From NCBI GenBank assembly GCA_927797885.1, contig OV696605.1, positions 1,835,157 to 1,899,156 of the forward strand: 64,000 nucleotides of DNA, given 5' to 3'. Both the position numbers and the translations under genes were made by a program. Of the stretch, positions 24,160-62,105 are shown piece by piece (positions within the stretch are counted from its first letter, which is position 1; each line of letters begins with the position of its first letter). The DNA comes from Gloeomargaritales cyanobacterium VI4D9. GTDB lineage: Bacteria > Cyanobacteriota > Cyanobacteriia > Gloeomargaritales > Gloeomargaritaceae. The notes under the pieces were generated by a model, which made no database searches, had not been told where the DNA came from, and worked only from the letters and a program-made list of their open reading frames with translations.

Positions 24160-24615
24160 ATGATTCAATTTACCCTTAGTTCTAACCCTATCTGTCCCTC
24201 TGCAATGAGCCGTCTATTAGTCAATAGTACCGTGGGAGCTTTAGTTACATTTGAAGGTTGGGTACGCAATCACAACGAAGGAAAATCTGTGTTGGGTTTA
24301 GAATATGAAGTGTATGAAATTCTAGCCCGAAAGGAAGGTGAAAAAATTCTCCAGGAGGCCCAAACTAAATTTAATCTTTCTGGTGCCGTTGCTTGTCACC
24401 GTTATGGTTATTTAGACATTGGTGAAATTGCTGTTTGGGTTGGCACAACTGGGGTGCATCGTGGCTCAGCGTTTGCCGGAACTCGTTATATTATTAATGG
24501 GATTAAAAGTCGTTTACCGATCTGGAAGAAAGAATTTTATATCGGGGAAAAACCGCAGTGGATATTATGTCCACAAAATCATATAGAAATCCTAAATAAG
24601 AACAAAACAAGATGA
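24160..24615 (+). CDS. moaE: Molybdopterin synthase catalytic subunit MoaE
   Basis: Transfers the MoaD sulfur to cyclic pyranopterin. 151 residues with GALVTFEGWVRNHNEGK, LEYEVYEILA, RYGYLDIGEIAVWVG and the active-site lysines in IKSRLPIWKKE. It begins directly after the moaD stop. The last nine residues (from EILNKNKTR) are read from a decayed MITE A end, so the natural tail has probably been replaced. Confidence 0.93.
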   Translation: MIQFTLSSNPICPSAMSRLLVNSTVGALVTFEGWVRNHNEGKSVLGLEYEVYEILARKEGEKILQEAQTKFNLSGAVACHRYGYLDIGEIAVWVGTTGVHRGSAFAGTRYIINGIKSRLPIWKKEFYIGEKPQWILCPQNHIEILNKNKTR

Positions 24616-24678
24616 GTATTGGTCTATTTTAGGGAAAGCAAATTTCTGATGCCTTAAAGCAAACTTAAATAGCTATTT
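24585..24678 (+). repeat. Decayed MITE A overlapping the moaE stop
   Basis: TATAGAAATCCTAAATAAGAA resembles the MITE A left end, and TTTCTGATGCCT farther on resembles the interior TTTCTGTATGCCTA. The right end is degraded up to the IS5-family element. The match is partial, so the boundaries are approximate. Confidence 0.5.
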
Positions 24679-24896
24679 GGGCACCTCTATTAATTGACCT
24701 ATGGTTTAGTTAGTATTAACGACGTGGAAGGAAAAAATGGGTCAAAAAGGATTTTGGGATGAGCAAGAGCGGCGGGAAAAACTCAATCAAAAAAAGCCCA
24801 TGCTGAAGTGGCTCAATGAGAATATTAACTGGGAAGAGTTCCGCCCAATATTAGAAACGATATATGACAAGGGAAGAAAGAGCAATGCAGGTCGTA

Positions 24897-25009
24897 CAGT
24901 CTTTTGAGTGGTTATGGGATACAGTTGAACCCCGCTTGCCGTAGGTCAATCACGGTAAGCCTTTAGGATAATCGAGGCTTTTTCTATCCTTTAATTGATA
25001 GATAGACTG
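24897..25009 (+). repeat. MITE family C, copy 1 (TA target duplication)
   Basis: 113 bases with ends CAGTCT and AGACTG, flanked by TA on both sides (24895-24896, 25010-25011). Removing it restores SNAGRKPTDVV, the expected transposase sequence. TA duplication points to an IS630/Tc1-type mover. A second copy is at 33054-33164. Confidence 0.8.
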
Positions 25010-25237
25010 TAAACCCACCGATGTGGTTGATTCTCCAACAAATGTATGCCATTAGTGACGATGAACTCGAGTTTCAAGTGAATGACCGTATCTCGTTCAT
25101 GGAATTCCTAGGATTCGGTATCGAAGACGCTATCCCTGATGCCAAAACGGTCTGGTTATTTCGGGATAATCTTGCCAAGCATGATCTGGTTAAAGAAGTA
25201 TTTGCTCATTTTGATAATTACCTGAGAGAAAAAGGAT

Positions 25238-25340
25238 ATATAGCAATCCTATTTGATTAACGAACACAAATTTCCCAGAACCAGGGACGGGGGCGGTGCC
25301 CCTGCGACCCCTGTTCCATTCTTATTTAGGATTGCTATAT
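25238..25340 (-). repeat. MITE family A, copy 3, inside the IS5 transposase gene
   Basis: Short form, inserted at a TA within the codons for EKGY-IVEVG. Orientation is reverse to the copy at 36124-36226, which occupies the same site in the other IS5 copy. Confidence 0.85.
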
Positions 25341-25918
25341 TGTCGAAGTTGGTCAGATGGTGGATGCCACTCTCATTCCCGTGCCAGTCCAACGGAATAA
25401 GAAAATCAAGAAGTAAAGGAAGGGAACATTCCTAAGCAATGGGGGAAAAACCCCCATGTTTTACGGCAAGAGATGCCCGTTGGGTAAAGAAAAATGGTGT
25501 TAGTTATTTTGGCTATAAAAATCATATCAGCGTAGATGTAAAATATGGTTTTGTGCGTCATTATGTGGTCACGGATGCCTCCGTGCATGACTCCCAAGTA
25601 TTCAGTCAACTCGTGGATATTGATGGCCAAGAAATCTGGGGAGATAGTGCCTATCACAGCACGGATTTAGAATGGACATTAGCAAAAATCCATGAAAAAG
25701 GCTACCGCAGAGCAAAATGAAAAGAATCGCATCAAATCTCAAGTGAGAGCCAAGGTGGAACACGTATTTGGTCAGTGGGTGATGGGTCTTGGGGGTAAGT
25801 TTATGCGTCTGATTGGTAAAACCAGAGTACAGGCGGCAATTGGTTTGAAAAATCTCGCTTATAATTTCCGCCGTTATGCGTTTTGGGAGCGGCGGTCTCT
25901 GGCTGATATAGTCATTCC

Positions 25919-27026
25919 CAGAAGTGTTGAAAGGTAGGTAAAGGCAGAAAAAGAGGGGTCAAAATATGGTATTCTAATTCATATAAACCAAAACATGAAA
26001 CAACTATGAAATTCAATTCTTTTCCCGGGATTGTCAAATTTTTACTCAAAGACCTGCCAACTAATGATTATCCAGTTCTAAATTCTCGCTTATTTTGTTC
26101 AATCTGGTTTGCTGGCATTTTAGACAAAGGAATCAACAGTTTACGGGACTTATTTTACCAATTAAATCATGCGGGCATTAAGGTTGACTTATCCACGTTT
26201 TCTAAGGCGAACAAGACAAGAGACCCACAAATTTTTATGCATCTTTATCATAAATTATTGCATTATATTGAGGAAGCTCATCCTGAAAAGAGGTTGGTTT
26301 TATGTCCTTTTGATGCTACCGTAATACCGCTGATGAGTAAGTTATTTTGGCTCCAAGGCTATCGCCAAGTAAAGTTAATAACCACTTTGAATCAAGATAC
26401 GAAATCTACTGGTCATTTAATTGTTAGTCCTGGACAGGCACATGAGATTAATTTTGGTGAAGATATTGTGAAAATGCTACCGGAAAATGGAGTCGCAGTC
26501 GGGGATAGAGGGTTTTGCAGTCACAAAGTATTTGAACAATTTATCGAAAATGATGCCCTTTTTATTATCCGTATTAAGTCGAATTGGAAATGGGATGAAA
26601 ACTATCATATCACCACAGAACGAGGTAAGGCGAGAGTAGTTTGTTTTGGCAATGTTCAACAGAAAGTAGACTATTATTTAGCTACCAATATTCCTGAGGA
26701 TGTAATGAGTAATGAAGAGATAGGGGAAGCCTATAGACAACGCTGGGCGATAGAGGTACTATGGAAATTTCTAAAGATGAACTTAAAGCTCGATAAAATG
26801 ATGAGTAAAAATTTGAATGGAATTACCATTCAAATTTATGTAATTTTAATAGTTTACTTGATATTGCAACTGTTAAAAGTTCCACGGATGTACGGAAGTA
26901 AATTGGCAGATAAGTTCCGATATATACAAATCTTAATACGGCAGGAGTGGAATTTTGTCCATTGGCTCAATCGGGTCGTCCCACGCCTAAATATGTAAAG
27001 TTTTATTGCAGGATTCAACACTTGTG
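25919..27026 (+). mobile_element. IS4-family insertion sequence, copy 1
   Basis: 1108 bases with terminal inverted repeats CAGAAGTGTTGAA and TTCAACACTTGTG (one mismatch) and a 9-base target duplication AGTCATTCC at 25910-25918 and 27027-27035. It is apparently identical to the copy at 60998-62105, so transposition is recent. Confidence 0.93.
26006..26998 (+). CDS. IS4-family transposase
   Basis: 330 residues, intact. The DDE triad is visible as D in PFDATVIPL (about 110), D in GDRGFCSH (about 167) and E in YRQRWAIEVLWKFLK, which fits the IS4 Y-(2)-R-(3)-E-(6)-K signature. The gene fills most of the IS and has short flanks before the terminal repeats. Confidence 0.93.
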   Translation: MKFNSFPGIVKFLLKDLPTNDYPVLNSRLFCSIWFAGILDKGINSLRDLFYQLNHAGIKVDLSTFSKANKTRDPQIFMHLYHKLLHYIEEAHPEKRLVLCPFDATVIPLMSKLFWLQGYRQVKLITTLNQDTKSTGHLIVSPGQAHEINFGEDIVKMLPENGVAVGDRGFCSHKVFEQFIENDALFIIRIKSNWKWDENYHITTERGKARVVCFGNVQQKVDYYLATNIPEDVMSNEEIGEAYRQRWAIEVLWKFLKMNLKLDKMMSKNLNGITIQIYVILIVYLILQLLKVPRMYGSKLADKFRYIQILIRQEWNFVHWLNRVVPRLNM

Positions 27027-27295
27027 AGTCATTCCGTTTTAGAGTGCGACACTTTTTAGGTATTTGCAACCGCTCTATTCTTTTCTAGGAGAGGGTTTGT
27101 AGGTGAAGGCGAGTGTTGCAAACTTGTTTGAAATGACTATAATCTGTGAGTTTTGACCCCATACTAAATCTCTTTTTAATCATATCTACAGCAATCTATA
27201 AAACCCAGTCATCTTAGTACAAAAAAGTACTGAGCAATGCTCTGCTGTTCTTGTGCTTTGTTCTCATGTTTTGAATAAATAGAGGTGCCCTAAAG

Positions 27296-27374
27296 TCTAT
27301 GGCAATCTTATTGGATTGATGAACAGAAGTTCCCTAGAACCAAGACGGGGCGGTGCCCTGCGACCCTTGATTTT
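27296..27374 (-). repeat. MITE family A fragment
   Basis: TATGGCAATCTTATTGGATT, then CTAGAACCAAGACGGGGCGG and GCCCTGCGACCC, the MITE A interior in reverse. The right inverted end is missing. No gene lies between it and the PAP2-like stop. Confidence 0.6.
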
Positions 27375-35946: not shown

Positions 35947-36123
35947 AAATCTAGGACAGTGCAATTCAAGATTAGTGTATCGCAAGCCTTGCCCCTGCAG
36001 GTGGACAGGATAAGAATTTGCAGACAAATATTAGGGCACCTCTATTCATTCAAAACATGAGGGCAAAACACAAGAACAGCAGATTATTACTCAGTACTTT
36101 TTTGTACTAAGATGACTCGGTTT

Positions 36124-36226
36124 TATATAGCAATCCTAAATGAAAATAGAATAGGGGTCGCAGGGGCACCGACCCCGTCCTTTGTTCTGGAAAATTCTTG
36201 TTTGTAAATCAAGTAGGATTGCTATA
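36124..36226 (+). repeat. MITE family A, copy 5, at the IS5 coding site
   Basis: Inverted ends TATAGCAATCC and GGATTGCTATA. Its right flank reads straight into IVEVGQIVDATLIPVPV, the same codon junction as in the other IS5 copy but with the opposite MITE orientation. Confidence 0.85.
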
Positions 36227-36227
36227 T

Positions 36228-36847
36228 ATTGTCGAAGTTGGCCAGATTGTGGATGCCACTCTCATTCCCGTGCCAGTCCAACGGAATAAGAAAATCAAGA
36301 AGTGAAGGAAGGGAACATTCCTAAGCAATGGGAGGAAAAACCCCATGTTTTACGGCAAAAGGATAGAACTGCCCGTTGGGTAAAGAAAAATGGTATCAGC
36401 TATTTTGGCTATAAAAATCATATCAGCGTGGATGTAAAATACGGTTTTGTACGTCATTATGTGGTCACGGATGCCTCCGTGCATGACTCACAAGTATTCA
36501 GTCAACTTGTGGATATTGATGGGTCGGAAATATGGGGAGATAGTGCCTATCACAGCACGGATTTAGAATGGACGTTAGCCAGGATTGGTTTTACCAGTCA
36601 AATCCATCAAAAAGGCTACCGAAATCAGCCCCTAACCGCCGAGCAAAATGAAAAGAATCGCATCAAATCTCAAGTGAGAGCCAAGGTGGAACACGTATTT
36701 GGTCAGTGGGTGATGTGTCTTGGGGGTAAGTTCATGCGTCTGATTGGTAAAACCAGAGTACAGGCGGCAATTGGGTTGAAAAATCTCGCTTATAATTTCC
36801 GCCGTTATGCGTTTTGGGAGCGGCAGTCTCTGGCTGATAATCTGTGA
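36228..36847 (+). pseudogene. IS5-family transposase, C-terminal part
   Basis: It reads IVEVGQIVDATLIPVPVQRN, then a one-base shift (needed to read EVKEGNIPKQWEEKPHVLRQ) and KNGISYFGYKNHISVDVKYG, GDSAYHSTDLEW, GYRNQPLTAEQN, VEHVFGQWVM to the end WERQSLADNL. The same shift is found in the 25 kb copy. The first 130 or so residues are missing. Confidence 0.85.
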
Positions 36848-36987
36848 GTTTTTACCCCATACTAAGTCTCTTTCCAATCATATCTACACCAATCTATAAA
36901 ACCCAGTCATCTTAGTACAAAAAAGTACTGAGCATGCTATACTGTTCTTGTATTTCATTCCCATTTTTTGAATAAATAGAGGTGCCC

Positions 36988-60997: not shown

Positions 60998-62105
60998 CAG
61001 AAGTGTTGAAAGGTAGGTAAAGGCAGAAAAAGAGGGGTCAAAATATGGTATTCTAATTCATATAAACCAAAACATGAAACAACTATGAAATTCAATTCTT
61101 TTCCCGGGATTGTCAAATTTTTACTCAAAGACCTGCCAACTAATGATTATCCAGTTCTAAATTCTCGCTTATTTTGTTCAATCTGGTTTGCTGGCATTTT
61201 AGACAAAGGAATCAACAGTTTACGGGACTTATTTTACCAATTAAATCATGCGGGCATTAAGGTTGACTTATCCACGTTTTCTAAGGCGAACAAGACAAGA
61301 GACCCACAAATTTTTATGCATCTTTATCATAAATTATTGCATTATATTGAGGAAGCTCATCCTGAAAAGAGGTTGGTTTTATGTCCTTTTGATGCTACCG
61401 TAATACCGCTGATGAGTAAGTTATTTTGGCTCCAAGGCTATCGCCAAGTAAAGTTAATAACCACTTTGAATCAAGATACGAAATCTACTGGTCATTTAAT
61501 TGTTAGTCCTGGACAGGCACATGAGATTAATTTTGGTGAAGATATTGTGAAAATGCTACCGGAAAATGGAGTCGCAGTCGGGGATAGAGGGTTTTGCAGT
61601 CACAAAGTATTTGAACAATTTATCGAAAATGATGCCCTTTTTATTATCCGTATTAAGTCGAATTGGAAATGGGATGAAAACTATCATATCACCACAGAAC
61701 GAGGTAAGGCGAGAGTAGTTTGTTTTGGCAATGTTCAACAGAAAGTAGACTATTATTTAGCTACCAATATTCCTGAGGATGTAATGAGTAATGAAGAGAT
61801 AGGGGAAGCCTATAGACAACGCTGGGCGATAGAGGTACTATGGAAATTTCTAAAGATGAACTTAAAGCTCGATAAAATGATGAGTAAAAATTTGAATGGA
61901 ATTACCATTCAAATTTATGTAATTTTAATAGTTTACTTGATATTGCAACTGTTAAAAGTTCCACGGATGTACGGAAGTAAATTGGCAGATAAGTTCCGAT
62001 ATATACAAATCTTAATACGGCAGGAGTGGAATTTTGTCCATTGGCTCAATCGGGTCGTCCCACGCCTAAATATGTAAAGTTTTATTGCAGGATTCAACAC
62101 TTGTG
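60998..62105 (+). mobile_element. IS4-family insertion sequence, copy 2
   Basis: Terminal repeats CAGAAGTGTTGAA and TTCAACACTTGTG, 1108 bases, flanked by CTCCAATTC at 60989-60997 and 62106-62114. Same sequence as 25919-27026. Confidence 0.95.
61085..62077 (+). CDS. IS4-family transposase (copy 2)
   Basis: 330 residues, same protein as at 26006-26998: PFDATVIPL, GDRGFCSH and YRQRWAIEVLWKFLK. Intact, so it could still be active. Confidence 0.93.
   Translation: MKFNSFPGIVKFLLKDLPTNDYPVLNSRLFCSIWFAGILDKGINSLRDLFYQLNHAGIKVDLSTFSKANKTRDPQIFMHLYHKLLHYIEEAHPEKRLVLCPFDATVIPLMSKLFWLQGYRQVKLITTLNQDTKSTGHLIVSPGQAHEINFGEDIVKMLPENGVAVGDRGFCSHKVFEQFIENDALFIIRIKSNWKWDENYHITTERGKARVVCFGNVQQKVDYYLATNIPEDVMSNEEIGEAYRQRWAIEVLWKFLKMNLKLDKMMSKNLNGITIQIYVILIVYLILQLLKVPRMYGSKLADKFRYIQILIRQEWNFVHWLNRVVPRLNM

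Follow-up and report, generated by a model that had tools for sequence, protein, structure and literature searches.

Layered insertions of mobile elements in an IS5-family copy behind moaE of a Gloeomargaritales cyanobacterium

Introduction

Behind the molybdenum-cofactor gene moaE, the genome of the Gloeomargaritales cyanobacterium VI4D9 (a single contig of 3.16 Mb, G000 in what follows) carries several mobile elements packed into one another. The question raised by this locus is whether they arrived independently and successively, moved together as one composite unit, or were attracted by the site itself. The window analysed here is a stretch of 64,000 nucleotides of this genome. An earlier note, made from the sequence alone, had proposed a four-layer nest in which an IS5-family element hosts the MITEs C, A, and D, and MITE D hosts an IS4-family element; it had also called the spot beside moaE a safe landing pad. 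A literature search by title found no paper on this locus.

Results

The nest and its empty sites

The segment 24679-27290 of the window is a real layering of mobile elements (Table 1). The position of C, A, and D inside the IS5 and of the IS4 inside D is borne out by the empty sites in sibling IS5 copies and by the duplications. The four layers described earlier are right in substance, with a depth of three (IS5, then D, then IS4), since C, A, and D form a single layer. The whole nest was aligned with four sibling IS5 copies; for the comparison with 16 chosen IS5 copies of this genome, the inserts were first taken out. Inverted ends and a duplication had been claimed for every boundary; both exist for C, A, D, and the IS4, and the IS5 has the inverted ends without the duplication.

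Table 1. Features of the nest and of its flanks, in positions of the window.
Feature	Position	Strand	Details
IS630-family 3' terminal piece	24584-24678	-	enters at TA 24582-24583 in the moaE end; left flank of the IS5
IS5-family element, old and broken	24679-27290	+	ends GGGCACC...GGTGCCC at 24679 and 27290; alignments with siblings
MITE C, 113 bp	24897-25009		TA at 24895-24896 and 25010-25011; empty site in 8/16 IS5 copies
MITE A, 97 bp	25241-25337		TA at 25239-25240 and 25338-25339; empty site in 16/16 IS5 copies
MITE D, 114 bp of its own (25909-25918 and 27036-27139)	25909-27139		TA at 25907-25908 and 27140-27141; split by the IS4
IS4-family element, 1108 bp	25919-27026	+	330-aa transposase ORF 26006-26998; AGTCATTCC at 25910-25918 and 27027-27035
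Degraded MITE A fragment	27298-27369	+	81.3% match to A; right flank of the IS5

Without its inserts, the window IS5 measured 1165 bases compared with 1243 in intact copies, with six gaps, and it was 91.7-94.2% identical to the 16 chosen copies, a divergence that marks it as old. A search of the genome yielded, among the matches listed, at least 16 near full-length IS5 copies at 100% identity (rounded) and others at 90-95%. The transposase of an intact sibling (L001) scored 270.5 bits against NF033581 (cut-off 140), which places it in the IS5 family; that of the window copy survives only in pieces, below the cut-off. Removal of each insert had been said to restore a readable transposase stretch or the uninterrupted site. 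When insert A was left out, a translated search matched residues 65-155 in one frame with 96.7% identity, compared with 69.8% over residues 65-157 when A was kept, and leaving out insert D carried the match to residue 343 instead of 341.

Excision of the inserts and realignment of the IS5 remainder, a check proposed in the earlier note, recovered the uninterrupted site of A, GGATATATTG, and that of D, GATAATC, in all of the 16 siblings. The site of C, GGTCGTAAACCC, was uninterrupted in the eight copies of an older type (L225-L230, L233, and L237); the eight copies of a recent type showed GGTCGAAAACCC at this place, with one base different. The boundaries of MITE A were set to fit its empty site, by a shift of two bases. 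The TA duplication claimed for C agrees with its empty site. For D, a duplication TATA had been given and is rejected, as the empty site holds a single TA in every copy and the duplication is therefore TA.

All three MITEs are repeated in the genome, with at least 44 matches for C, at least 48 for A, and at least 42 for D (26 of them near full length) among the matches listed; 40 candidates were scored per repeat search, and these counts are lower bounds. In a 390-kb sample and the window taken together, copies with full ends were flanked by TA on both sides in 7/7 cases for C, 21/23 for A, and 2/2 for D, these two being the only such copies of D in the sampled DNA. TA is the target of IS630-type (Tc1/mariner-like) elements. 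C and D show the TA duplication, the inverted ends, the many copies, and the length too short for a transposase that characterize TA-target MITEs. The ends of MITE A resemble the local IS630-family element, at the right over 27 bases by match and at the left by eye, and A has both the TA duplication and the shared terminal sequence of an IS630-related MITE. At L040, one of the other places aligned with the IS630-family piece, the transposase of this element lies in two ORFs, both of which matched NF033545 below the cut-off.

The IS4-family element and the order of insertions

The 330-aa DDE transposase of the innermost element scored 170.1 bits against NF033592 (cut-off 115), as a member of the IS4 family. 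Its left end was found 69 times in the genome, 65 times without mismatch. Two of these copies (L191 and L208) were left out of the duplication count, their right end not being found. Both ends were measured in the other 67; the length is exactly 1108 bp in 63 of them, and a perfect 9-bp duplication was present in 53 and none in 14. The inverted ends and the duplication of constant length expected of an IS4-family element are present, and the duplication proposed for the window copy is confirmed. At least 40 copies besides that of the window scored as identical among the matches listed, which indicates that the window copy is recent. A second 1108-bp copy lies in the window at 60998-62105 (L187), with the duplication CTCCAATTC.

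The order proposed earlier, with the window IS5 first and the IS4 last, is upheld, as is the view of separate, successive insertions. The order among the MITEs had been left open and can be weakly narrowed. Among the matches listed, MITE A is identical to at least seven other copies over 102 bases, compared with at best 98% for the nearest other copy of C and 97% for that of D, so that A is probably the youngest of the three, copy identity being a weak clock.

Chance as the source of the pattern is excluded by the copies of the IS4, C, D, and A elsewhere in the genome. The elements might also have moved as a single composite unit, a reading that the earlier note had named as a possible refutation of its own. 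No points in favour of a composite were found, and each of the four inserts (C, A, D, and the IS4) has a duplication of its own and occurs at other places in the genome. The internal junctions (IS5/C, IS5/A, IS5/D, and D/IS4) were crossed by at most about 15 bases among the matches listed (40 candidates scored), which gave no second place in the genome with these junctions. The composite is therefore rejected, and we give it practically no chance. One match (L002, G000:3072587-3072817) crosses the outer right junction of the IS5. At L002 an IS5 also lies beside an A-type MITE, directly at the duplication TATA, with a spacing that differs from that of the window, and an IS5 is again next to a MITE end in L004, where the MITE is D.

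The flanks of the IS5-family element

The window IS5 has no target duplication, with ATTT on its left and TAAA on its right, compared with a 4-bp duplication in 21 of the 27 other IS5 places listed. This absence is taken as the trace of a later rearrangement, and the element is still counted as a member of the family; given it, the arrival of the window IS5 is not a cleanly shown insertion. The IS630-family piece on the left and the MITE A fragment on the right imply that the two flanks are not those of one target. The IS630 piece, and with it the left flank of the IS5, was missed in the earlier note. The IS630-family end encodes the last ten residues of moaE and its stop codon (24613-24615), and 8 of the 13 other aligned places (in G000, G003, and G004) continue past this point of the IS630 sequence.

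The moaE stretch was matched by three of 30 genomes, G000 itself included, and the survey of related strains suggested earlier comprises two relatives, G003 and G004. In a scan with MoaE that kept 80 loci, from which near relatives may be missing, the best cyanobacterial record was a Gloeomargarita MAG (SKYG116) at 58%, and the genus of G000 is accordingly taken to be probably Gloeomargarita. Both have the moaE locus, with other gene blocks behind it. In G000, moaE is followed by a DUF212 gene and, beyond it, by what we take to be a polyprenyl synthase gene; in G003 it is followed by trpB, and in G004 by a gene for an Rpn-family protein and, further on, presumably FtsH. The genes behind moaE thus differ in the three genomes compared, and counterparts are found elsewhere in the other genomes. 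The moaE of G003 and that of G004 end differently from that of the window; in G003 the difference begins at the TA of 24582-24583, where the gene runs into another repeat. These different genes make a deletion or recombination likely at this spot, and such an event is the natural explanation of both the flanks and the gene differences.

The IS5 itself may have been the breakpoint, two IS5 copies, or one IS5 and neighbouring DNA, having recombined or been deleted so as to join the moaE operon to the DUF212 block. The mismatched flanks, the missing duplication, and the different blocks after moaE all point this way, and in G000 a distance of 1.08 Mb separates the DUF212 gene from the gene that adjoins it in G003, which has an IS4 copy and a piece of a repeat close by. 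However, a reciprocal IS5 junction was looked for in the loci fetched, which cover part of the genome, and none was found; a simple adjacent deletion would also explain the flanks, and the gene order of these genomes is disrupted at other places as well, so that the break may have arisen without this IS5. We rate this role of the IS5 at slightly under an even chance, as an addition to the nest and not as its replacement. A little more doubtful is the fuller proposal, in which the IS5 mediated the break by which the moaE operon and the DUF212 block were joined, the nest lies on that breakpoint, and the truncated IS630 end supplies the C-terminus and stop of moaE. If it is true, mobile debris preserves the trace of a rearrangement and now belongs to a gene.

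Insertion into existing repeats

A preferred landing pad would mean that insertions are drawn to the place after moaE or to mobile DNA as such. In G003, moaE is likewise followed by an IS5-like end and by MITEs of types C and A, and in G004 by a dispersed repeat; however, A and C have dozens of copies, and it is not unusual to find them in any one gap. The IS4 copies were compared with a repeat library made of A, C, D, IS5, E (400 bases of the IS630 end, from L040), and F (from behind moaE in G003, L038:3421-3575). Twelve of the 67 copies lie inside library repeats, including that of the window and L163, the latter by an 18-base end match only; 30 more lie within about 340 bases of a repeat (42/67 in or near one) and 25 are without. 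In the 390-kb sample, 34 of 1081 pieces were centred in repeats and 175 had any repeat. Compared with all DNA, the IS4 thus looks strongly enriched in repeats, about six times (12/67 vs 34/1081). This enrichment disappears against non-coding DNA, crudely defined as whatever lies outside ORFs of 100 aa or longer: the repeat families, themselves counted as non-coding, make up about 21.5% of it in the sample, and the IS4 share of 18% is not above this value. With survivors mainly in gaps, the IS4 would hit repeats about as often as was seen. This premise is a rough one, as the joined site lies within an ORF of 100 aa or longer at 11 of the 53 IS4 sites with a duplication, that of the window included. 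The landing pad is not supported by these counts and is rejected; an attraction by the spot or by mobile DNA is very improbable.

Other nests in the genome

We read by eye 36 IS5 places, that is, 35 fetched stretches and the window, which are a part of all the IS5 copies. In at least 10 of the 36, another element is inserted between IS5 stretches that remain in register (the window, L003, L004, L217, L231, L232, L233, L236, L237, and L238). L238 (G000:2110300-2113000) shows an IS4 in an IS5 in an IS4, from which it follows that the two families were active in overlapping times. An IS5 lies in an IS5 in L217, and one A and three C elements lie in an IS5 in L231. The 174-bp element inside the IS5 of L236 (G000:2297200-2298950), with IS4-type ends and a repeated flank, is probably a MITE of the IS4. 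A strict automated count, which missed C as a gap adjoins it, gave few other nests besides this locus in the 390-kb sample, and nests are therefore not frequent per kilobase.

Three IS5 copies (L232, L233, and L237) carry an insert of about 122 bp with inverted ends of the form GGTTCTCCT...AGGAGAGCC, at the same site in two of them. A further nest is seen in L041 (G000:2729500-2733500), where an IS630-family end holds a C-type sequence. A second IS5 remnant of the window, at 36033-36987 (L240), is composed of two pieces in opposite orientation that enclose a MITE A (36128-36224), which suggests an inversion or deletion.

Discussion

We propose, with high confidence, that the nest is the product of independent, successive transpositions. 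The proposal builds on the observed boundaries, TA and 9-bp duplications, empty sites, and copy numbers, and on the comparison with non-coding DNA. In this account, an IS5-family element came to sit after moaE, within or next to a truncated IS630-family element, and decayed through small deletions. C, A, and D, as non-autonomous TA-target elements, inserted into it. MITE A looks related to the local IS630 family through an internal deletion, and the transposase of that family presumably moved it. The IS4-family element landed recently in MITE D. The missing duplication and the mismatched flanks suggest that the window IS5 also took part in a deletion or recombination. No special site is needed on this account: surviving insertions lie mostly in intergenic gaps, those in genes having presumably been lost by selection, and about one-fifth of the gap DNA is already mobile. 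The layering is about what chance insertion gives under such conditions.

The nest gives a clean and checkable order of insertions, and the counts illustrate how nests can arise without a special target where about one-fifth of the non-coding DNA consists of the six repeat types searched for. Its use beyond that is modest, as a sign that the IS4 was recently active and that rearrangements are frequent in the lineage. A neutral turnover of insertion sequences with occasional expansions has been described (PMC4072520).

The elements themselves conform largely to known families. The IS5 family (NCBIfam NF033581) is recognized by the score of the intact sibling and by the 4-bp duplication in most places; the window copy differs in being broken and without duplication. 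The IS4-family element (NCBIfam NF033592), with its DDE transposase, inverted ends, and 9-bp duplication, shows nothing notably different save the large number of identical copies. The MITEs have the TA duplication, the short inverted ends, and the many copies known from IS630-type elements and from MITEs of that type, and the terminal sequence of MITE A is also that of the local IS630-family element. The nest as a whole is a fresh instance of an already known kind. Elements inserted in one another are described as "Russian dolls" in work on the annotation of prokaryote transposable elements (PMC3852290); the nesting is the same here, and only the genome and the families involved are different.
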